Assembly (NCBI GenBank): GCA_022844045.1
Contig: JALHMM010000018.1
Location: forward strand, 18,292-82,291
Length of the DNA: 64,000 bases
Reading direction: 5' to 3'
From: Reyranellaceae bacterium
GTDB taxonomy: Bacteria; Pseudomonadota; Alphaproteobacteria; Reyranellales; Reyranellaceae
Both the position numbers and the translations under genes were made by a program. The notes under the pieces are model-generated. The model had not been told where the DNA came from. It searched no databases and saw only the letters and a program-made list of their open reading frames with translations. Below, one piece after another: positions 1 to 52,462 of the stretch. Numbering within the stretch: the stretch's first letter is position 1; each line of letters starts with the position of its first letter.

Positions 1-504
1 GAAGGCACTTTTCTCGCGACCGTCGCGGCGCGCGCACCGCGGCTCCAGTTGCTGCTTTTCGACCTACCCGCCGTTGCTGCCCGGGCCGAGGCTCGGTTCG
101 CAGCCTTGGGGCTTGTGGATAGGGCTGTCGCAGTTGGGGGTGATTTCCGTCGTGATCGGTTGCCGTCCGGCGCTGACATCGTGTCATTGATCCGGGTCCT
201 GCACGACCATGACGACCCGTCGGCGCTCCTCATTTTGCGCGCCATCCACGCCGCGCTGCCGCCTGGTGGAACGCTCCTGGTCGCCGAACCGATGTCCGCC
301 AGCAGAGGATCCGACCCAGTTGGCGACGCCTATTTTGCGTTCTACCTGATGGCCATGGGCAGCGGCCGTCCGCGTCAGCCGACCGAGATTTCGAACCTCC
401 TCGCGGCGGCGGGATTTCGCGACATCGAGTCTATGCGTACCCGTCAGCCGATGCTGACACGCCTCATTGTGGCCAGGCGGTCGACGGCGGTGGACAGGTG
501 TTAG
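1..504 (+). CDS. crtF: Demethylspheroidene O-methyltransferase CrtF, 3' part
   Basis: The frame is open from base 1 and lacks its start, so this is the C-terminal 167 codons of a SAM-dependent O-methyltransferase. The ORF track begins it at an internal TTG (49), which is not a credible start. Visible features fit the class I O-methyltransferase fold: FDLPAV (SAM-binding acidic loop), GDFRRD, LIRVLHDHDD around the catalytic region, and LLVAEPM. CrtF methylates the C-1 hydroxyl in the spheroidene/spirilloxanthin carotenoid pathway. Assignment to CrtF rather than another O-methyltransferase rests on these motifs plus the conserved crtEF-bchCXYZ-puf gene order. The stop codon lies inside the PpsR box controlling bchC. 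More crt genes are expected to the left of the window. Confidence 0.88.
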   Translation, partial: EGTFLATVAARAPRLQLLLFDLPAVAARAEARFAALGLVDRAVAVGGDFRRDRLPSGADIVSLIRVLHDHDDPSALLILRAIHAALPPGGTLLVAEPMSASRGSDPVGDAYFAFYLMAMGSGRPRQPTEISNLLAAAGFRDIESMRTRQPMLTRLIVARRSTAVDRC

Positions 505-553
505 ATTTAGTTGACACTTTGGATAGTCAAGTTACGATGACACTTCGATAGTC
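499..553 (+). promoter_or_regulatory. bchC promoter with two tandem PpsR/CrtJ boxes
   Basis: TGT-N12-ACA is exact at 499-516 and overlaps the crtF stop codon. A second box, AGT-N12-ACA (extended AGTCA-N8-TGACA), lies at 525-542, exactly 8 bp further on. A sigma70-like promoter runs through them: TTGACA at 511-516, 16-bp spacer, TACGAT at 533-538. The first box covers the -35 and the second covers the -10. Seen also as a 26-bp period direct repeat of TGACACTT..GATAGTC. In Rhodobacter capsulatus, CrtJ (PpsR) binds two such palindromes 8 bp apart at bchC, so repression of bchCXYZ-puf by the PpsR proteins encoded here is the natural inference. Confidence 0.85.
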
Positions 554-569
554 CAAAACCAGCTGCCCC

Positions 570-1514
570 ATGAAGACGCTCGCTGTAGTCGTCGAAAGGC
601 CCGAGCACCTCGTGCTCAGTCATCTGCCGTTGCCCCCGCCCGGTGACGGCGAGGTGGTGGTTGACATCGAATGGAGCGCCATCAGCACCGGTACCGAGAG
701 GCTTTTGTGGACCGGCCGCATGCCGTCGTTTCCGGGCATGGGCTACCCCTTGGTCCCCGGCTACGAGTCGGTCGGACGCATCACGTCGGCCGGTAGTCGC
801 CGACTGGACTCCCGCATCGGTGAACGCGTCTTTGTTCCCGGCGCACGCTGCTTCGGCGAGGTCCGCGGCCTGTTTGGCGGCGCTGCGGCGCGCGTGGTCG
901 TGCCATGCGAGAAAGCGGTGACGATCGATGAGAGCCTTGGCGAGCAGGGCGTGCTCATCGCGCTTGCCGCCACCGCTTATCACGTGACCGCCAAGGCGGG
1001 CAGCGCTCAACCGGACTTGATCGTCGGGCACGGGGTGCTGGGACGTCTGATGGCGCGGCTCGCTTTGGTGGCGGGTGCGCCGCCGCCGGTGGTCTGGGAG
1101 CGAAACCCGGAACGACGCCATGGTGCGGTCGGCTACAGCGTGGTCGATCCGGACACCGATCCGCGGCGCGACTATCGCGTCATCTGTGACGTCAGCGGCG
1201 ACGCGTCCGTGCTCGACGGTTTGTTCGCCCGGCTCGCGCCAGGCGGCGAGGTCGTCCTCGCCGGCTTCTACAGCGAGCGCCTGGGGTTCGACTTTCCGGG
1301 CGCTTTCATGCGCGAGGCCCGTATCCGCGTCGCCGCGGAATGGCAGCCGCCCGATCTGCACGCCGTCAAGACCCTGATCGAAACCGGCGCGCTGTCGCTC
1401 GATGGGCTGATCACGCATCGCAGCTCCGCGATGAAGGCGGACGCCGCTTATCGAACCGCGTTCGGCGACCCGGCGTGCCTCAAGATGATCCTCGATTGGA
1501 GGGACTGCGTATGA
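570..1514 (+). CDS. bchC: 3-hydroxyethyl bacteriochlorophyllide a dehydrogenase BchC
   Basis: 314 aa, usual for the family. It oxidises the C-3 hydroxyethyl group to the acetyl group of bacteriochlorophyllide a, with NAD+. The N-terminal GroES-like alcohol dehydrogenase half shows SAISTGTERLLW and GYPLVPGYESVG, the zinc-less MDR pattern typical of BchC. The C-terminal half holds the nucleotide-binding fold around IVGHGVLGRLMARLA. The ATG at 570 lies just behind the double PpsR-box promoter. The stop overlaps the bchX start (ATGA), beginning the bchCXYZ-puf superoperon. A long antisense ORF across it is a shadow. Confidence 0.95.
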   Translation: MKTLAVVVERPEHLVLSHLPLPPPGDGEVVVDIEWSAISTGTERLLWTGRMPSFPGMGYPLVPGYESVGRITSAGSRRLDSRIGERVFVPGARCFGEVRGLFGGAAARVVVPCEKAVTIDESLGEQGVLIALAATAYHVTAKAGSAQPDLIVGHGVLGRLMARLALVAGAPPPVVWERNPERRHGAVGYSVVDPDTDPRRDYRVICDVSGDASVLDGLFARLAPGGEVVLAGFYSERLGFDFPGAFMREARIRVAAEWQPPDLHAVKTLIETGALSLDGLITHRSSAMKADAAYRTAFGDPACLKMILDWRDCV

Positions 1515-8803: not shown

Positions 8804-8829
8804 GACGTCAAAGCCCTTTCTTTGACGTC
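8804..8829. terminator. Bidirectional hairpin between hmuO and bphP
   Basis: GACGTCAAAG (8804-8813) and CTTTGACGTC (8820-8829) are perfect 10-bp arms around CCCTTT. It lies 12 bp past the hmuO stop and covers the last codons of convergent bphP. Position and symmetry suit a shared terminator, although U-tracts are short. Confidence 0.65.
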
Positions 8830-10988
8830 CGGCTGGCATGCCAGAGCAATAGCTCAAGAATCTCGGCCGTTCTCGTGACCGACGTATGCACGCTCTCCAG
8901 CATTTCCGGCATACGAGCCAAATCCATGCCGTCGGTGATCTCGAGCGCCGCAAGCTGGGCATTGTCCACGATCGATGACAGTAGGTTCTGGAACGCAAGA
9001 TCCGTTGTCGTGTCCAAGCGCACGCTCGTCACGTGATGCCTCTCGATGATGCTTTCCTGGAAACGCCGTCGCGCGGCCTCCGCCGCTTTGCGTTCAGTGA
9101 GTTCTGTTAGCAAGATAACGAAACCCAGAACGACGTCGGGCGGCGATAACACAGGATCGGCTCGCAGGAGCAGCGGTTTCGTGGCGCCGTCTGACATCTC
9201 CAGCCGGACTTCGGCGCGCCATGGTCCGCGTTGCGTCAGCAGGTCGCGAAGCCGTCGGCGCACACCATCGCTTTCGGCGAACATGGCGGGAAGATCGTCG
9301 ATCCATTGCAGGCGCGGACGAGGAACCGGCAGCAGCCTCTCAAAGGCGTCATTCGCGAGCAGAATGCGGCCGCGCGCGTCAGAGATGATGACGGGCAGCT
9401 CGGATCGTTCAACCTGACGGCTCGCATGCTCGAGCTGATTCTGGGCGATGAGCATCCGCACCGACCTGAACTGGAGAACCACGTCTGACACGGTTTCTCC
9501 GATCAGTCGCACCACACCGAGGTCCGCCGGCGTCCATGGTTCCGAGGTGTTCTCGACCAGCTGATGCCATTGCGCGAATGAGCGTCGCGGTGACAGCTCT
9601 GCTGGATTGTCGCCGATGATGACGGGCTTGAGCGGGTCGCCGCCCCACGTGACGGTGCGAACGCGTTCGGGCCGGAACCAGACCAGATGCTCGCCGCGCG
9701 AGCTCGACACGGCGGTGGAGAGAACACCGCTGGCTGAAGCCTTGATTGGCAGGAACCGCGGCTCGTCGATGCCAAGCGACGCGGTCGCGATGACCGCCCC
9801 TCGCTTCCGCCTCTCGCCATCAAGCCAGGTTCCAAGTTCCCGCAACTCCTGCGTTCCCGGCACATCGCCGACGGTATGCACTTCTCCTTCGAACAGCAGA
9901 GCCGCGCCCGTGGCACCCACGTATTGCAGCAGGGACTTCGTGCCGTCGAACAGCGCCAGCTTCCAGTCGCCATCGCGCGAGATCGCCTCGATCATCCTTT
10001 GCTCGAGGCGCCGGACCGAGAGTTCGGCCTGTGCCTGCACGAAGCTTTCGAGCGCGGCGATCCGCGTCGCTATCACCTCGGCAAGAAGTTCGCAGACCGC
10101 GCGGACCTCGAAGTGGACAAACCGCGGAGCGTAGTGATGGCAGGCGATGAGGCCCCAGAGCTTCCCGCCGACCATCAGCGAAACCACGAGCGTCGCTTTG
10201 ACGCCCATGTTTTTCAGGTATTGGATATGGATCGGCGACATGCTGCGCAGAAAACACATCGACATGTCGAGGTCGCGGCCGGTAATCGGCGACAGCCTGT
10301 CGCTCAGCGGTATCGGCTCGTAACCGACATCGACCAGGACGCGCACGCGATTGCGCTCGTAGAGCCGACGCGCGATCTGGGGAATGTCCGAGGCCGGATA
10401 CCGGTTGCCGAGATAGGCTTCCAGCTGCGGTTGCCGACGTTCGGAGAAGACTTCTCCATGTCCTTGATCGTCGAAGCGATAGACCATCACCCGGTCATAG
10501 CCTGTGAGGTCCTTGAAGATCTTCGCGGTCGCGTCACATAAAGCCCGCAGCGAAGGCGCCGTGAGAGCCGTCTGCACGGCTCTGTCGAGGTGTCGCGACA
10601 GGTCGACGGGTGGGCCTGCGCGTTCCAATTCGATGATGAGGCCGCCGTCGGCCGGTCGATGCAGCAATCCGTCGAATTCGCTCGCGGGCTGTCCAACGCG
10701 GCAGCGCACGGCGCGCGGAATTGTGCTGAGAGAGTCGCGAAGGTGAGGCTCGACCCGCGACGCCAGATCGCCAGGGAGGCTCCCCAGGGAGCGACCGATG
10801 AAGTTGTCGCCGATACCCAGGAATTGCCCGGCGTTCTGGCTGGCCTGCACGATGACGCTATCCGCCTCGCGAACGACGATCAATGCGCCATGCGGCTGGA
10901 TCGAAGCCGCGAACTGAATCTGCTCACGTTCGCAGTTGGAGAGATCCGCGTGCCCGAAGGCAGGTGTGGGCGATGGGTGGGCGGTCAC
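8808..10988 (-). CDS. bphP: Bacteriophytochrome BphP (PAS-GAF-PHY-PAS)
   Basis: 726 aa from a GTG behind GGGGGGCG. Red/far-red photoreceptor. Domains in order: N-terminal PAS (about 20-120) with the biliverdin-attachment Cys19 in SNCEREQIQ; GAF (about 145-315) with the chromophore-pocket motif PASDIP; PHY (about 330-505) with the tongue motif PRRSF; a second PAS (about 515-625); and a C-terminal helical stretch. There is no HATPase domain, so it is not a conventional histidine kinase. Located 18 bp downstream of ppsR1 on the same strand. In Bradyrhizobium ORS278 and Rhodopseudomonas palustris a BphP of this architecture relieves PpsR repression under far-red light, and the same role is inferred. 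Confidence 0.95.
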   Translation of the reverse strand: MTAHPSPTPAFGHADLSNCEREQIQFAASIQPHGALIVVREADSVIVQASQNAGQFLGIGDNFIGRSLGSLPGDLASRVEPHLRDSLSTIPRAVRCRVGQPASEFDGLLHRPADGGLIIELERAGPPVDLSRHLDRAVQTALTAPSLRALCDATAKIFKDLTGYDRVMVYRFDDQGHGEVFSERRQPQLEAYLGNRYPASDIPQIARRLYERNRVRVLVDVGYEPIPLSDRLSPITGRDLDMSMCFLRSMSPIHIQYLKNMGVKATLVVSLMVGGKLWGLIACHHYAPRFVHFEVRAVCELLAEVIATRIAALESFVQAQAELSVRRLEQRMIEAISRDGDWKLALFDGTKSLLQYVGATGAALLFEGEVHTVGDVPGTQELRELGTWLDGERRKRGAVIATASLGIDEPRFLPIKASASGVLSTAVSSSRGEHLVWFRPERVRTVTWGGDPLKPVIIGDNPAELSPRRSFAQWHQLVENTSEPWTPADLGVVRLIGETVSDVVLQFRSVRMLIAQNQLEHASRQVERSELPVIISDARGRILLANDAFERLLPVPRPRLQWIDDLPAMFAESDGVRRRLRDLLTQRGPWRAEVRLEMSDGATKPLLLRADPVLSPPDVVLGFVILLTELTERKAAEAARRRFQESIIERHHVTSVRLDTTTDLAFQNLLSSIVDNAQLAALEITDGMDLARMPEMLESVHTSVTRTAEILELLLWHASRTSKKGL

Positions 10989-11006: not shown

Positions 11007-12380
11007 TCAGTCGCCGGTGTCGGAGTCCGCTCGGCTGCGTTGTTCGAGGCCATACCTCTTCAGCTTAGCATAAAGGCTCTGCCGACTTAGACCAAGGATT
11101 TCAGCGGCCGCGGTTCGGTTGCCGTCGGCTGTCTCGATGGCCGACTTGATATGGTATCGTTCGACGACCCCAACGGTGTCGTCGACCAGCTTGCGCAGGG
11201 GAGCCCGACCGAGTTGCTCCGATAGTGAACCGAGCGCCGACAGCAAACGCGAATCGTTGGGGGGGGGCTGCAACCGGCGGCTGACATCGCGAATGATCAT
11301 GCCGATGTAGTGCGATTCGAGATTGGCCGTTCCAGCGACCGACACTTCGACCTCGGTTTCCGTGCCCAGCTCGCCGTGTATCGTCGTCGAAAAACGGCGT
11401 ACCACGCGATGACGATGGAACGTCCCCAGCAACACCGAGAGATCGGCGCCCGGTTGCCACAGCCACCGAGCCAGGCTCTCGCCGACCACAGATCCCACCG
11501 CGCCGAGTTCTACCAGCTCCAGAAAAGCTTTGTTGGTGCGGCGGATCAGGCCCTCGTCATCGACCACGACGAAGCCATCGGGGGCGTGTTCAATCAACTC
11601 TTCGATCGACACCGCTTCCTTGCCGCGGCGGTCGGGTGGCGCCGATCCCACAGACGCCAGCTGCAGAAGAAAAGCCTGCCCGGCCTCCGCCGCGATCAAT
11701 GACGCGCGCACCATCCACGGTTTGCGATCGAGCCCGACATGGATGAGCAGCCCAGGCGCCTTGCCCTGCTCGCGGACCCGCTGGAGCATCGTCTGGAACG
11801 GCTCGCGCTCTTGGGGCACGAGCTCCTGGAGGAATTCGCGGCCGTTAAGGGCTTCGGGATCCTGGGAGGAGAGTCCCAGAGCCTGCACTGCGGCGGGATT
11901 TGCCTCGACAATCCGAAGGTTCGAAGCCCGGATCATCAGAAACGATTCGTTCGAATTCTCGAAAAGCAGGCGATAGCGGGTCTCAACTTCGCGTCTCTTC
12001 CAGTGGTCGCGCTCCATAGCCTGTTGCGCGGCGATCAAGCGCGACTGGAGTTCGGCGACCGCTTGGAGGTTCTTGCCGATCGCGATCAATCCGGCACGCC
12101 CGCCGAGCATGAGCGTTGTGTACTCGACAGGCAGTTCAAGGCCGCTCGGAAACCGCTGCATGACCTGGCGGAAGGCGGACACGCCACTGGCCTTGGCGTC
12201 GTCGACCATGCGGCGAATCTTGTCGCCGCCAAAATCTGAGACTGTGTCGACCCAGGGCCGTCCCAACCAGCTCTCGATCGGTTCGCCTGAAATGGCGCCA
12301 GCCAGCGTCGCCTCTCGGATCACTCCGTCCATGTCGAGGAGCAAGGTGACGTCAGGTTGGGTGATCGAGATAGCGCTCAT
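11007..12380 (-). CDS. ppsR1: PpsR-type photosynthesis regulator, copy 1
   Basis: 457 aa from the ATG at 12380; the ORF extends to a TTG at 12443 with extra residues (MSCLDWRRW...) that do not look like the family. Three PAS-like regions with a glutamine-rich linker (LQSRLIAAQQAMERDHWKR) are followed by a Fis-type helix-turn-helix, GNRTAAAEILGLSRQSLYAK. Such proteins bind TGT-N12-ACA upstream of bch, crt and puf genes. From the ATG onward the protein has no cysteine at all, so the thiol redox switch described for Rhodobacter PpsR/CrtJ cannot operate; light control through BphP from the adjacent gene is the likelier input. Whether it represses or activates cannot be read from sequence. Confidence 0.93.
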   Translation of the reverse strand: MSAISITQPDVTLLLDMDGVIREATLAGAISGEPIESWLGRPWVDTVSDFGGDKIRRMVDDAKASGVSAFRQVMQRFPSGLELPVEYTTLMLGGRAGLIAIGKNLQAVAELQSRLIAAQQAMERDHWKRREVETRYRLLFENSNESFLMIRASNLRIVEANPAAVQALGLSSQDPEALNGREFLQELVPQEREPFQTMLQRVREQGKAPGLLIHVGLDRKPWMVRASLIAAEAGQAFLLQLASVGSAPPDRRGKEAVSIEELIEHAPDGFVVVDDEGLIRRTNKAFLELVELGAVGSVVGESLARWLWQPGADLSVLLGTFHRHRVVRRFSTTIHGELGTETEVEVSVAGTANLESHYIGMIIRDVSRRLQPPPNDSRLLSALGSLSEQLGRAPLRKLVDDTVGVVERYHIKSAIETADGNRTAAAEILGLSRQSLYAKLKRYGLEQRSRADSDTGD

Positions 12381-12493
12381 AGCTTGTCGGACTGCTTTCT
12401 TGGGTGACAAGTCTGGCCAGCGTCTCCAATCCAAACATGACAAACTGTAACGCCCACCTGTCTATCAGATAAGCCGAAAAGCACAAAATTGCC

Positions 12494-12626
12494 AGTCAAA
12501 ATGACTCTGCACTCAATTTTGGCGAGACAAGGGTATTTTGACCCTTACACGTCAACATGACTTGTCATGATTTCAACCTTCGCCGATATTGACGTGGCAG
12601 GGCGACACTTAAGCGTCAACATTGCT
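12494..12626. promoter_or_regulatory. Triple GTCAA-ATGAC element between ppsR1 and cycA
   Basis: In the 290-bp divergent gap, AGTCAAAATGACT (12494-12506) and CGTCAACATGACT (12550-12562) match at 11 of 13 positions, each a small palindrome GTCA-N3-TGAC. A third, weaker copy CGTCAACATTGCT is at 12614-12626. The second overlaps a further perfect palindrome CATGAC-TT-GTCATG (12556-12569). The GTCA/TGAC arms resemble PpsR half-sites but the spacing does not fit TGT-N12-ACA. Probable operators for cycA and/or ppsR1; the binding protein is unknown. Confidence 0.5.
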
Positions 12627-12670
12627 CGACGCCTGTCTGTCGCCGGGTAGGAGTTAGGGAGCTTGTGAGC

Positions 12671-17076: not shown

Positions 17077-18516
17077 TCAATCGTGCGTTTCGCTATGGAC
17101 GGCTGGCGCGAGCCCGTACCTGCGCAGCTTGACATACAGGCTCTGGCGGCTGAGGCCGAGGATCTCGGCGGCCGACGCGCGGTTGTCGCGTGTCAGCTGC
17201 AGCGCCGCCTCGATCGCGAGACGCTCGATAAGATCAGTGGCCTCCTGGACGAGCTCTTTCAGCGACACGCGTCCGACCAACGCTGTCAGCTGTTCGACCG
17301 AATGTGGCAGCCCCCGGGGCATCGGTGGCTCTGGCTTCAGTCTTCCGCCGACGTTGCGGATCGTGAAGCCCAAGCGTTGCCCGTCTTCGTTCTTCACCAA
17401 GACCGCCGATATCTCGACATTCGACTGGACGCCGTGTTCGCCACGCAGCGTCGTCGCGAACAATCGTACGGTTCCCCTCTGTTTGAGGTTCAGTATCAGT
17501 ACGCCGAGATCGACGCCCGATCGGCCGAGCCAGCGTTCGATCGACTCCGAAACCGCCTGTTTCTCGTTGGCGAGCTGAGCCATCTCGAGAAAGGCCTCGT
17601 TGGCCGCCAGGATCCGGCCTTCTAGGTCGGTTACGACGAAACCGTCAGGCGCGCTCTCGACTAGCTTGACGAGCATCGCCTTGGTCGCCGACAGCGTCGA
17701 AGACGCATCGGCGTTTTGCGCCGCCTCGAGCCGCACGAGGAACAGCGAGGCTTTGTCCTGTCGGAACAGAGACGCCGAGACCATGACCTCGCCTTCGACG
17801 CCCTGGAGCTTCGCCTTGGTCGAATCCGTCCTCCCCGCGCCCCGCACGCCCGCGAGAAAACTCTGGATCGTTTGGGTGCTGTCTCGGTCGAATGCCGAGA
17901 TGAACGGACGGCCCACGAGGCGTTTTCCGATCGCGCCGAACAGATGGCTGGCGGCGGGGTTCGATTCGATGATCTTCAGAGTGGAGACGTCGACGATCAA
18001 CACGGGCTCGGAAGAGATCTGAAACAGGAGCCGATAGCGGGTCTCGACGTGACGGAGTCTGGAATAGTCGCGCTCCATCGATTGCTGTGCGTCCACAAGC
18101 TGCTGCTGCAAGGCGGAGACGGACCGCAAGTCCCGTCCGAAGACGACCAGAAGCCCTTGCTTGTCGACGCGAACCGCGCAGCACAACACCGGCAGGGGGG
18201 CCGCCTCTGCCGATCCGCGATAGTTTACGTGACGCCAACGCGGTGCCTGCCCCGAGGCCGCTTCCCGCAGGATCTGTTCAACCTTCCCTTGGCTATCGGA
18301 CGCTACGGTATCGACCCAGGTGCTGCCGGGCCACCTGGAGACCCCCGCGAAGCTATGCGCGAACTCGTCATTGTTGAACGCGATATCCCGGATAACGCCC
18401 GACTGGTCGACGACCATCGCGACGTCCGCCGCCGCCGCGACAATCGCCGCAACAGCATCCGCGTCGAGTTGGGCAAGAAACCTCTTCGGGGCCTTGAAAG
18501 CCTTCACGAGAGACAT
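17077..18516 (-). CDS. ppsR2: PpsR-type photosynthesis repressor, copy 2
   Basis: 479 aa from the ATG at 18516, which follows AAGAAGGA; a GTG at 18540 would add eight residues. Architecture as for ppsR1: N-terminal domain, linker, two PAS domains (SAPDGFVVTDLEGRILAANE in the last), then Fis-type HTH with ASAAEILGLSRQSLYVKL. The start MSLVKAF... and the position between aerR and bchG match the canonical repressor. Its only cysteines are an adjacent pair in the N-terminal domain (Cys112-Cys113); none lies in or near the HTH, unlike the redox cysteines reported for Rhodobacter CrtJ/PpsR. Likely acts at the bchC and bchF promoters seen here. Confidence 0.94.
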   Translation of the reverse strand: MSLVKAFKAPKRFLAQLDADAVAAIVAAAADVAMVVDQSGVIRDIAFNNDEFAHSFAGVSRWPGSTWVDTVASDSQGKVEQILREAASGQAPRWRHVNYRGSAEAAPLPVLCCAVRVDKQGLLVVFGRDLRSVSALQQQLVDAQQSMERDYSRLRHVETRYRLLFQISSEPVLIVDVSTLKIIESNPAASHLFGAIGKRLVGRPFISAFDRDSTQTIQSFLAGVRGAGRTDSTKAKLQGVEGEVMVSASLFRQDKASLFLVRLEAAQNADASSTLSATKAMLVKLVESAPDGFVVTDLEGRILAANEAFLEMAQLANEKQAVSESIERWLGRSGVDLGVLILNLKQRGTVRLFATTLRGEHGVQSNVEISAVLVKNEDGQRLGFTIRNVGGRLKPEPPMPRGLPHSVEQLTALVGRVSLKELVQEATDLIERLAIEAALQLTRDNRASAAEILGLSRQSLYVKLRRYGLAPAVHSETHD

Positions 18517-18628
18517 GATCCTTCTTCGCCAGAGCCGCACTCCTCCCGACTTTCCTTGTCCCGGTCCTTGTCACGCACCGGTTGTGTCGACTGGTATCTG
18601 TGTGGGTCGCTCGCCCGCCACGAACGGA

Positions 18629-19561
18629 TTAGGGTCGTTTTCGTCGTTGTAGTTCCATCAGGTTGTCGGCTTGAATTGCGGCGTCTCGTCCGTCGGTCGC
18701 CGACATGTCGGCTCCGACGGATGTGATGTTCTCGGGATGGTCGCGAAACGCGGGGCCGCTGACGATCACGCCGATCGTCCTGTTTCGCGACGCCCTGCGG
18801 ATCTGTCGGATTCCAGCCGCAAGATCGTCGAGATGCGACTCGAGAGTGAGCGAGATTTCGACGACGTCGAACCATTCGCGGCGGACGATACCCACGGTTT
18901 CGGCGCCCGATGCCGAGCAGCCCAGATAGGCGTCCCAGCCGTCCCGCCTGAGGAACTCGGCGGCCAGCACGAGTCCGAACGCACCGAAGATCAAATGCCC
19001 GAAACTGGCCTCTTCCCCGGGGGCCGGCACCAATAGCACGCGATGACCGTGCTCGCGGGGCTTGACCTCTCCACGAAACGCCAGGCCGAACTCGTGGAGG
19101 ATCTGCTGCAGTCGCAGAGTGCCGAGCGTTACAGCGACAAAGTCGCAAACGTCGTCCTTCCAGTAGTCCCCCATCCGCCGCGCCGCCGGCTCTATCAGAT
19201 CGAGATAAATCTGCTCCAGCGACAGGCCTTGTGAGCGCATCGTTTCGACCCGGCTACACGCCTCGGCAACGCTGCCGCCCAGAACCAGTCTTGCGAAGTC
19301 GTCGACCTCCGTGGTCGCGGCCTTCGCGTCGATGCTCGCTGGGGTCCTGACACTACGGATGGCTGAGACAAGCCGCGGGATGATCTCCAACTCGACCACG
19401 CTGGCCACATCGTGCGCCGGCTTAATGAGTCGCCGTTCCCGCTGTTTCCTCGGCGGCGAGTTCAGCCCGGCGATTCCCGCCTGGCTGTCATCTTGGCCGA
19501 GACCGGTCGACTCGAGTTCGAAGCCCCGCATCTCAAGTCGTTCTCTCAAATGACCTGTCAT
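18629..19561 (-). CDS. aerR: AerR/PpaA-type regulator with B12-binding-like domain
   Basis: 310 aa. The N-terminal third is variable; residues about 85-160 form the helical cap (SLEQIYLDLIEPAARRMGDYW) and about 165-290 the Rossmann-like SCHIC/B12-binding fold (HRVLLVPAPGEEASFGHLI...). PpaA/AerR proteins are antirepressors of PpsR/CrtJ that sense cobalamin and light. The classical DxHxxG cobalamin motif is not visible; the equivalent stretch reads PGEEASFGH. The gene is divergent from bchF and directly upstream of ppsR2, its usual neighbour. Confidence 0.88.
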   Translation of the reverse strand: MTGHLRERLEMRGFELESTGLGQDDSQAGIAGLNSPPRKQRERRLIKPAHDVASVVELEIIPRLVSAIRSVRTPASIDAKAATTEVDDFARLVLGGSVAEACSRVETMRSQGLSLEQIYLDLIEPAARRMGDYWKDDVCDFVAVTLGTLRLQQILHEFGLAFRGEVKPREHGHRVLLVPAPGEEASFGHLIFGAFGLVLAAEFLRRDGWDAYLGCSASGAETVGIVRREWFDVVEISLTLESHLDDLAAGIRQIRRASRNRTIGVIVSGPAFRDHPENITSVGADMSATDGRDAAIQADNLMELQRRKRP

Positions 19562-19619
19562 GGACTGCTCCCTCCCAGAAGGCTAAATCCACTTCCATGT
19601 GATCGTCAACTGAAGTTTA

Positions 19620-19690
19620 CGTTGATCTAGGTTGACACTCCTCGAACAGCGACCTAGGCTTTCTATCAACGAAGGCATTCGCGTCAGGAG
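19620..19690 (+). promoter_or_regulatory. bchF promoter, PpsR-like box and ribosome-binding site
   Basis: TTGACA (19632-19637), 17-bp spacer, TAGGCT (19655-19660) is a good sigma70 promoter. The TTGACA also closes a near-consensus PpsR box CGT-N12-ACA (19620-19637), the same overlap as at bchC. AGGAG (19686-19690) sits 7 bp before the ATG at 19698, which supports that start for bchF. Confidence 0.6.
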
Positions 19691-19697
19691 TTGCGCA

Positions 19698-21709
<2,012 letters not shown>

Positions 21710-49785: not shown

Positions 49786-50994
49786 TCAGCCGATTGCCGC
49801 GAGGATCTGGCGGCCGCGGGTCGACCAGTCGAAGCGGTCCCTGCAGACCTGGTAGGCGCGCTCCTGCAGGCGATTGAGCAGGTCGACGTTGTCGATCATC
49901 TCAAGCACGCCTTTGGCCAGTGCCGCGTGATCAGGAAACATCATGGCGCTCTCGCCATGGCGCAGCGGCACGCCGGCGAAGGCCTCGGCCAGGCCGAACA
50001 CCGGGATGCGGTTGAACACATACTCGAGCAACTTGAGCTTGAAGCCGCCGCCATTGCGCTCGGGCACGATGGCGATCCGCGCGTCGTTCATGAAGCCGGT
50101 GACGTCGTCGACCGTGCCGGTGAAGCTGCTGGCGCTGACCGAGCGGCGCAACTTCTCGAGGAAGGCCGCCTCGGCGCTGCCGATCGCCTGCAGCTCGACA
50201 CCGCCCGCGGCGAACATGGGATCGGCGATGGCGACGAACTCCTCGAGATTCATGCGCTTGGCGATCCAGTCGAAGCTGCCGATTATCACGGCGCGGCGTG
50301 GCAGGCGGCGGGTGATCGATCGCGACGCGACGCGCCGGCCTTGATAGCCCGGCGTCAGGACATCCATCGGCTTGTCGTGGTGACTCTCGCGGTAGAGCGA
50401 GAGGTCTTCGGGCGTGATCGCGGTCACGACATCGACCGCCTCGACCAGGCTGCGCTCCAGCCGCGCGACCTTGTAGGCGTCGAGCCTGCTGGCCTGACGC
50501 TTGAGGAAGTGGCCCTGGCTGTCGGCCACTCGGCTGCGCAGGCTCGCCTCGTGGTTATGCGAGACATAGACCAGCTTCGGCCGGTCAGGCTCATTGACAT
50601 AGTGCTTGAGTATGCGCGGCAGCGCCCAGGCGCCGCATATGCTGTCGAAGACGATGCCGTCCCAGCCGCCCCGTGCCAGCAGATCATCGAGGATACGCCG
50701 TGTCCGGGCGTTGACGCAGCGATGCGCCATGTGCGGCAGGCGCGATGTGAGGCTCGCAAGCCGCGATAGCGGCCGGTCGGCCGGCAGCCACCACACGACA
50801 TGCGGCTCGCGCCAGCCGTTGCTACGTTGCGATTCGGGCCGCGCCAGGCCGAGCACCTCGACCTCGGCGCCGGCTTCGATCACGGCGTCGATCAGGCCGC
50901 CGGAATAGACGTACTGGCCATTGTGGCGAGGCTCCGGGTCGGACAGCGTCAGCCACAGGCAGCGCGGCGCGCGGGGTTGCTGCTCAGAATGCAT
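49786..50994 (-). CDS. Glycosyltransferase family 4 protein
   Basis: 402 aa from the ATG at 50994, inside the end of the wcaJ-like gene (11-bp overlap); the longer track ORF is an extension. N-terminal LWLTLSDPEPRHNGQYVYSGGL, the stretch LVYVSHNHEASLRSRVA, and C-terminal RRAVIIGSFDWIAKRMNLEEF with GGFKLKLLEYVFNRIPVFG indicate a GT-B enzyme of the GT1/GT4 group. Part of the minus-strand EPS operon. Confidence 0.83.
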   Translation of the reverse strand: MHSEQQPRAPRCLWLTLSDPEPRHNGQYVYSGGLIDAVIEAGAEVEVLGLARPESQRSNGWREPHVVWWLPADRPLSRLASLTSRLPHMAHRCVNARTRRILDDLLARGGWDGIVFDSICGAWALPRILKHYVNEPDRPKLVYVSHNHEASLRSRVADSQGHFLKRQASRLDAYKVARLERSLVEAVDVVTAITPEDLSLYRESHHDKPMDVLTPGYQGRRVASRSITRRLPRRAVIIGSFDWIAKRMNLEEFVAIADPMFAAGGVELQAIGSAEAAFLEKLRRSVSASSFTGTVDDVTGFMNDARIAIVPERNGGGFKLKLLEYVFNRIPVFGLAEAFAGVPLRHGESAMMFPDHAALAKGVLEMIDNVDLLNRLQERAYQVCRDRFDWSTRGRQILAAIG

Positions 50995-52462
50995 GGTGCC
51001 CTTTAAAGCCGCCCAGCATGGTGCGAGCGATGATCTTGAGGTCCAGGCGGATCGACCAGTTGTCGATGTAGTAAAGGTCGTGCTCGACACGCTTGCGGAT
51101 CTGCTCGACGGTGTCGGTTTCGCCGCGCCAGCCATTGACCTGGGCCCAGCCGGTGATGCCGGGCTTCATGCGGTGGCGCGCGTCGTAGTAGCGCACGGCG
51201 TCCTGGTAGAGCAGGGTGCCGGCCTTAGCGCGCAACGCATGCGGACGCGGGCCGACGATCGACATCTCGCCACGCAGCACGTTGATGAACTGTGGCAGCT
51301 CGTCGATGCTGGTGCGGCGGATGAAGGCGCCGACGCGGGTGATGCGCGGATCGTTGCGGCGTGTCAGCTGCTCGGCGTTGGTGTCCTGCGCGGCGTGGTG
51401 CATGGAGCGGAACTTCCATACCTCGATCAGCTGGTTATTGAATCCGTAGCGCTTCTGCCTGAAGAACACCGGGCCGGGACTGTCGAGCTTGATCAGCAAG
51501 GCGACGCCCAGCAGCACAGGCGAGATAAGGGTCAGGATGATCGCGGCCAGCATCCGGTCCTCGATCTCCTTGGCGATCCACCGCCAATCGCGCAGCGGCC
51601 GGTCCAGCACGTTGAGGAAAGTCAGCCCGCCGATATGACTCACCTGGATCTGGCCAAGCTGCAACCCGAACGCGTCGGGGCAGAGCCGCACGTCGACCGG
51701 CAGCAGGCTGAGCTTGTTCATTGTGTCGGTGAGCGCACGGTCGACTGCGAGCGGCAGGGCGACGATCACCGTGCCGATGCCGAGGCGGCGCGCGTCGTCG
51801 ACCAGATCGTCGATGGTGCCGCGGATCGGATGGCCCATGCAGCGCTCAGGCAGAGAGCGCGCGTCGTCGTCGTAGACGCCGACGATGCGCATGCTCGAGC
51901 TTGGCGACTCGTTGAGGTGGCGCAGCAGGCGCTGGGCGATCGGCCCCGCGCCGACGATCGCCACCAGTTCGCCCAGCCGGCCCTCGCGTCGCCATTTGCG
52001 TACAAGATGGAACAGCACCAGCCTGGATGGCAGCAGCAGGCTCAAGCCCGCGGCGAACCACAGCATGAACCACGCGCTGCCGGCCCCGCCTATCGGCGCC
52101 GCGACATAGGCCGCGACAGCGAGCGTGCCCAGCGTCAGGGTCCAGGCCAGCAACGCGCGCGAGACACCGTCGTCGAGCCGCGCGAAACGGTCGAAGCCGT
52201 ACGCCCCGAAGAAATGCAGGAAGTTGACACCGAGCAGTGTGCCGAGCAGCACGGCCAGGCTCGGCATCTGCCAGTCGAGGCCTTGCGCGCCCCAGTGCGT
52301 GGCAACCACGCCGGCGGTGAGAATCGAGACGCCATCGAAGACGCCGACGATGCGCCGCACGATCGGTTCCGACACGGGCTTGCGACTGGCGAAGACTTCC
52401 TCGATACGCTCCGCCGCGAGGTCATCGATGACCTGCGCACGTTGCGCGACGCTGTTTCTCAT
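50984..52462 (-). CDS. Undecaprenyl-phosphate sugar phosphotransferase (WcaJ-like)
   Basis: 492 aa. N-terminal helices, a central nucleotide-binding-like CoA_binding_3 domain ([18 protein letters not shown]), then the bacterial sugar transferase domain: [47 protein letters not shown] and IVGPRPHA. This initiates repeat-unit assembly by moving a hexose-1-phosphate, most often glucose, onto undecaprenyl phosphate at the inner membrane. GAGGAG precedes the ATG by 7 bp. Confidence 0.94.

Follow-up and report, generated by a model that had tools for sequence, protein, structure and literature searches.

The window analysed here (the whole stretch, 64,000 nucleotides, of a Reyranellaceae genome) carries two PpsR-type palindromes on the promoter of bchC and encodes two PpsR proteins without the redox cysteines of the Rhodobacter regulators. 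The locus raises two questions: whether the two palindromes constitute a tandem PpsR/CrtJ operator of the bchC promoter, and which signals could reach bchC through PpsR proteins of this kind.

The double palindrome of the bchC promoter

A preliminary description of the locus had proposed that an exact TGT-N12-ACA and an AGT-N12-ACA lie 8 bp apart, that they cover TTGACA and TACGAT, respectively, and that the first contains the crtF stop codon. All three proposals are correct to the base. The sequence of 499-542 reads TGTTAGATTTAGTTGACA-CTTTGGAT-AGTCAAGTTACGATGACA (box 1, spacer, and box 2); the gap is 517-524, the hexamers lie at 511-516 in box 1 and 533-538 in box 2, and the crtF frame closes with TAG at 502-504 (Table 1). 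The boxes are 26 bp apart center to center, TTGACA and TACGAT are separated by a 16 bp spacer, and no other sigma70-type promoter match occurs in 300-700 (shuffle expectation 0.0). The locus combines two palindromes, an 8 bp gap, and predicted −35 and −10 elements that the palindromes cover, and the genome encodes PpsR proteins with an intact helix-turn-helix (HTH). We conclude that 499-542 is, very probably, the bchC operator in its canonical form, a tandem site for PpsR/CrtJ.

Table 1. Coordinates of the bchC operator, its promoter, and the associated genes in the window
Feature	Position	Strand	Remarks
PpsR box 1 (upper palindrome, over −35)	499..516	.	TGT-N12-ACA exact, 6/6; matrix score 19.9; same position in relatives
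Inter-box spacer, 8 bp	517..524	.	exactly 8 bp in 74/80 relatives
PpsR box 2 (lower palindrome, over −10)	525..542	.	AGT-N12-ACA, 5/6, one departure; matrix score 20.7
Predicted −35 hexamer TTGACA, bchC promoter	511..516	+	right end of box 1; same slot in 71/75 relatives
Predicted −10 hexamer TACGAT, bchC promoter	533..538	+	within box 2; TANNNT in same slot in 70/75 relatives
crtF stop codon TAG	502..504	+	inside box 1
bchC	570..1514	+	TIGR01202, E 5e-136; start ATG 570
bchX, bchY, bchZ	after bchC, to 5543	+	TIGR02016, TIGR02015, TIGR02014
Bacteriophytochrome BphP	8808..10988	-	beside ppsR2; nearest solved relative R. palustris BphP1 (4gw9)
PpsR2-like regulator	11007..12443	-	TIGR02040; His at HTH cysteine position, Leu at Cys251 position
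PpsR1-like regulator	17077..18540	-	TIGR02040; Ala at HTH cysteine position, Val at Cys251 position
B12-binding AerR/PpaA-like protein	18629..19561	-	PF02310; adjoins ppsR1

Single exact TGT-N12-ACA sites occur in the window at about the frequency expected by chance (8 matches vs. 4.8 expected), and this is the one observation that favors a chance resemblance. For the pair, the result is different: in dinucleotide shuffles of the 330 bp upstream region, a pair matching at least 11/12 positions occurs at 8 bp spacing in 0.035% of shuffles and, with spacings of 0 to 12 all allowed, in 0.3%. With a matrix trained on bchC operators of other species, the window being excluded from training, the bchC pair is the top match on the 82-kb contig (46.8, vs. 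14.3 for the next unrelated site), and a strict consensus pattern allowing up to three mismatches matches only the bchC site in the 6.4-Mb assembly, apart from its own near-palindromic reverse. Seven boxes on the contig score at least 13, vs. 0.65 expected, and the majority of the high-scoring boxes lie between photosynthesis genes. The shuffles, the matrix score, and the occurrence of the pair at the orthologous position and spacing in 74/80 loci (see below) reduce a chance origin to a vanishing probability, and we reject it.

Other PpsR-like sites were observed in and around the window. A second 8 bp pair lies in the divergent crtD/crtE gap 1620 bp before the window (G000:C18:16671-16714); single boxes lie upstream of ppsR2 (12550-12567 and 12614-12631) and between the AerR-like gene and bchF (19604-19637 and 19807-19824; the bchF start codon is uncertain). 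At bchC itself, a lone AGTC half-site 7 bp past box 2 (538-553) extends a repeat (TGACACTTTGGATAGTC / TGACACTTCGATAGTC), and a few relatives (L022, L044, L075) have extra boxes at 8 bp steps.

Conservation of the double box across bchC loci

We compared 80 bchC loci from alpha-, beta-, and gammaproteobacteria, picked by similarity to the window bchC. In 74/80 loci there is a pair that matches at least 10/12 positions with a gap of exactly 8 bp, vs. 0.4 expected from shuffles; the loci are related and were chosen by bchC similarity, so the counts are not independent, and down-weighting of similar operators leaves ~52 effective sequences. Other spacings occur in 1-12 loci each, except for 2 bp, which occurs in 21 loci. 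The 2 bp excess was considered as a second design and rejected: nearly all cases are a secondary register of the main pair. The remaining 300 bp bins of these loci, covering −1500 to about +2400, together contain one such pair. PpsR is encoded in 78/80 genomes of the sample.

Alignment on the pair shows which positions are kept. TTGACA occupies the −35 slot in 71/75 pair-aligned loci and TANNNT the −10 slot in 70/75. Outside the hexamers, the GT of the left half-sites of both boxes is kept in 96-100%, and the left half-sites together with the right end of box 2 are conserved at 79-100%, whereas most positions of the 8 bp spacer drift among relatives. These results bear on the reading that conservation concerns a strong sigma70 promoter alone, with the palindromes as a by-product of TTGACA and the −10 element that no PpsR binds. 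The near invariance of the hexamers accords with that reading, as does the fact that the right end of box 1 comes from TTGACA; however, the conservation of half-sites that lie beyond the hexamers implies that more than a promoter is kept, the spacing is fixed at 8 bp in 74/80 loci, and the equivalent operator of Rhodobacter capsulatus has been footprinted (PMC5362033). We reject the promoter-only reading as highly improbable. Conserved hexamers and half-sites on either side of a drifting spacer indicate that promoter and operator are both kept, in a fixed geometry.

The same alignment places two details of the window in context. In 28/75 relatives box 2 begins with A, so the AGT seen here is an ordinary variant. 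The crtF stop codon lies inside box 1 in 21/74 loci and upstream of it in 52/74; its position in the window reflects a compact crtF-bchC junction and no special overlap.

A recognizable bchC pair is absent from four of the 80 loci (L039, L050, L073, L085), the record titles of which name Thiocystis, Thiorhodococcus, Thiocapsa, and Chromatium, all members of the Chromatiaceae; the genomes of these four still encode a PpsR with the HTH cysteine. In three Oxalobacteraceae (L051, L052, L055) box 2 has decayed and no TANNNT occupies the −10 slot, and in the PpsR proteins of the same genomes (L149, L148, L144) Ala replaces the HTH cysteine; bchC promoter and PpsR may have changed together in this group.

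Across the 80 genomes, the 8 bp double box on the promoter of bchC emerges as an almost universal design of purple bacteria. It had been supposed that the locus reproduces the R. capsulatus bchC arrangement. The layout is indeed the same, but it amounts to no special resemblance to Rhodobacter, being shared by 74/80 loci: it is a general proteobacterial bchC design, not particular to the host organism. In the literature, which we covered in part, we found no paper stating conservation over 80 genomes.

PpsR proteins without the HTH cysteine and the signals they may convey

The genome encodes two PpsR-family proteins above the curated cut-off of 275 (495 and 480 bits), both in the window; the true start of PpsR2 is probably slightly inside its open reading frame. 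The recognition helix (SRQSLYVKLRRYGL / SRQSLYAKLKRYGL) and the HTH are intact in both. The cysteine positions were read from an alignment of 113 PpsR proteins. At the HTH position (Cys420/424), Cys is present in 77/113; at the position of R. sphaeroides Cys251, it is present in only 2/113, both from Rhodobacterales. The window proteins have neither of the two cysteines of the Rhodobacter-type redox thiol system: that is, neither the HTH cysteine (Cys420/424) nor the second cysteine (Cys249/251). The preliminary description was right that both proteins lack these residues (Ala/His and Val/Leu), but the absence of a Cys251 equivalent is the norm and says little. A different second cysteine, in alignment column 523, which is not the Cys251 position, is common to 55/113 proteins and is absent in both window PpsRs.

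Genomes in which no PpsR has the HTH cysteine are less common: 7/76 other genomes belong to this class. The 8 bp pair is present in 7/7 of these genomes, vs. 63/69 of the remaining ones; since all seven retain the pair, the 8 bp geometry is independent of the HTH cysteine. Because the double box persists without that cysteine, its geometry should not be taken to indicate redox control. The HTH position is Ser/His in the sole phototrophic relative from the family and Ser/Tyr in a Bradyrhizobium genome. A PpsR2 without the cysteine was already known (PMC6899989); the host organism extends this to PpsR1, which is likewise without it, as in the family relative and in the one Bradyrhizobium.

The control element is a known one, seen here in one further organism, and in a lineage in which phototrophy is rare: among 75 genomes of the family, two carry bchC (G000, the genome of the window, and G044). 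The photosynthesis cluster (570 to about 35000) seems native to this genome, because the gene at 50984-52462, also on this contig, shares 81-83% identity with two genomes of the same genus; this identity also speaks against contamination of the photosynthesis contig, which we considered because so few genomes of the family have bchC. A left-flank gene compared with relatives in the same way gave no match and has no bearing on the question. The rarity of the cluster reflects either gain in the host or loss in the rest of the family. The contig also carries a gene for the RuBisCO large subunit, upstream of the photosynthesis cluster (G000:C18:1861-3327).

The genes next to ppsR2 and ppsR1 suggest which signals might act. 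A BphP1-type phytochrome lies beside a ppsR2 without HTH cysteine, in the gene order bphP-ppsR2-cycA-bchP-MFS-bchG-ppsR1, which is that of Bradyrhizobium (PMC10569730). BphP is probably a light antagonist of PpsR2, and the product of a heme oxygenase gene in the neighborhood could supply its chromophore. The AerR/PpaA-like protein is, partly to judge from its position, a probable co-regulator of PpsR1. Since neither PpsR carries the HTH redox cysteine, control via these neighboring sensors is probable.

According to the mechanism that we propose, tandem palindromes on the −35 and −10 elements of a sigma70-type promoter reading into bchCXYZ would be occupied by PpsR oligomers side by side, and these would exclude RNA polymerase from the promoter; PpsR2 would be relieved by BphP in far-red light, and PpsR1 would be modulated by its B12-binding AerR-like neighbor. 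The particular choice of signals (light via BphP and PpsR2, B12 via the AerR-like protein and PpsR1) we regard as possible, with at best an even chance of being correct. The stricter proposal, that thiol redox sensing no longer acts on a standard bchC operator, which is driven solely by light (BphP/PpsR2) and B12 (AerR-like/PpsR1), we put forward tentatively, as somewhat doubtful in this exclusive form.

Two rivals accept the operator and differ in how it is used. In the first, redox control persists through PpsR1, by way of other residues, for example its adjacent cysteine pair (Cys120-Cys121), or of a PAS-bound ligand. The pair is retained in the window protein, one of its members lying in a column that is Cys in 16/113 PpsRs, and in Rubrivivax gelatinosus the C436A mutant still exerted repression aerobically (PMC4452267); however, the position has no known redox role, and a phototrophic relative (G075) has no such pair at the same numbering. 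We consider persistence of redox control unlikely, although far from negligible. In the second, PpsR1 activates bchC from both boxes and PpsR2 represses from the same boxes. The gene order and the paralog pair match Bradyrhizobium, in whose PGC1 system PpsR2 represses and PpsR1 is reported as an activator (PMC10569730), and both HTHs are intact, so both proteins could bind the same sequence. Against activation, boxes over −35 and −10 favor repression, and PpsR1 and PpsR2 of Rhodopseudomonas palustris are both reported repressors. The odds on activation by PpsR1 are, in our estimate, as low as those on residual redox control. Organisms like the host provide natural test cases for a PpsR that has no redox thiols.

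Comparison with known PpsR/CrtJ-controlled promoters

The best-characterized counterpart is bchC of R. capsulatus, where CrtJ palindromes at −47/−30 and −21/−4 lie over −35 and −10, 8 bp apart (PMC5362033, PMC6199135). The palindromes have been footprinted, ChIP-exo shows that they are occupied in vivo (PMC5362033), and aerobic expression of bchC increases sixfold when crtJ is deleted (PMC5362033, PMC6199135); cooperative CrtJ binding there was reported earlier (Ponnampalam 1998, as cited in PMC5362033 and PMC6199135). The host locus is alike in its two palindromes, 8 bp gap, position over −35/−10, and probable co-regulator of the B12-binding AerR type. It is unlike in that box 2 is AGT-N12-ACA and in that there are two PpsRs, neither with an equivalent of Cys420 or Cys249/251. 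Box spacing and placement relative to the hexamers match those of R. capsulatus, which predicts a bchC start at ~546; by analogy, PpsR would bind, and bind cooperatively, at bchC in the host.

In regulators and gene content, the host is closer to Bradyrhizobium and R. palustris, with which it shares the bphP/ppsR2/cycA/bchP/MFS/bchG/ppsR1 set and order (PMC10569730, PMC6899989), a PpsR2 without the HTH cysteine, and a phytochrome nearest R. palustris BphP1. The difference lies in PpsR1, whose cysteine is reported in most strains and is Ala in the host; a cysteine-less PpsR1 is nonetheless not unique to the host, because one Bradyrhizobium genome (L087/G151) has Ser there.

The crtI promoter of Rubrivivax gelatinosus, a crtI rather than a bchC promoter, also has tandem PpsR boxes with an 8 bp gap and degenerate half-sites (TGa, cGT), and the Rubrivivax PpsR, unlike those of the host, retains the HTH cysteine, Cys436 (PMC4452267). 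Binding of PpsR to this 8 bp pair did not depend on redox state although the cysteine is present (PMC4452267), which agrees with a geometry independent of the cysteine. In Congregibacter litoralis, 12/15 predicted PpsR sites are likewise tandem, 7 or 8 nt apart, in contrast to the host with one PpsR described, the two cysteines of which are thought to be redox-sensing (PMC2654016). That tandem PpsR palindromes with 7 or 8 nt between them are common over sigma70 promoters in several species was already recognized in 2009 (PMC2654016).
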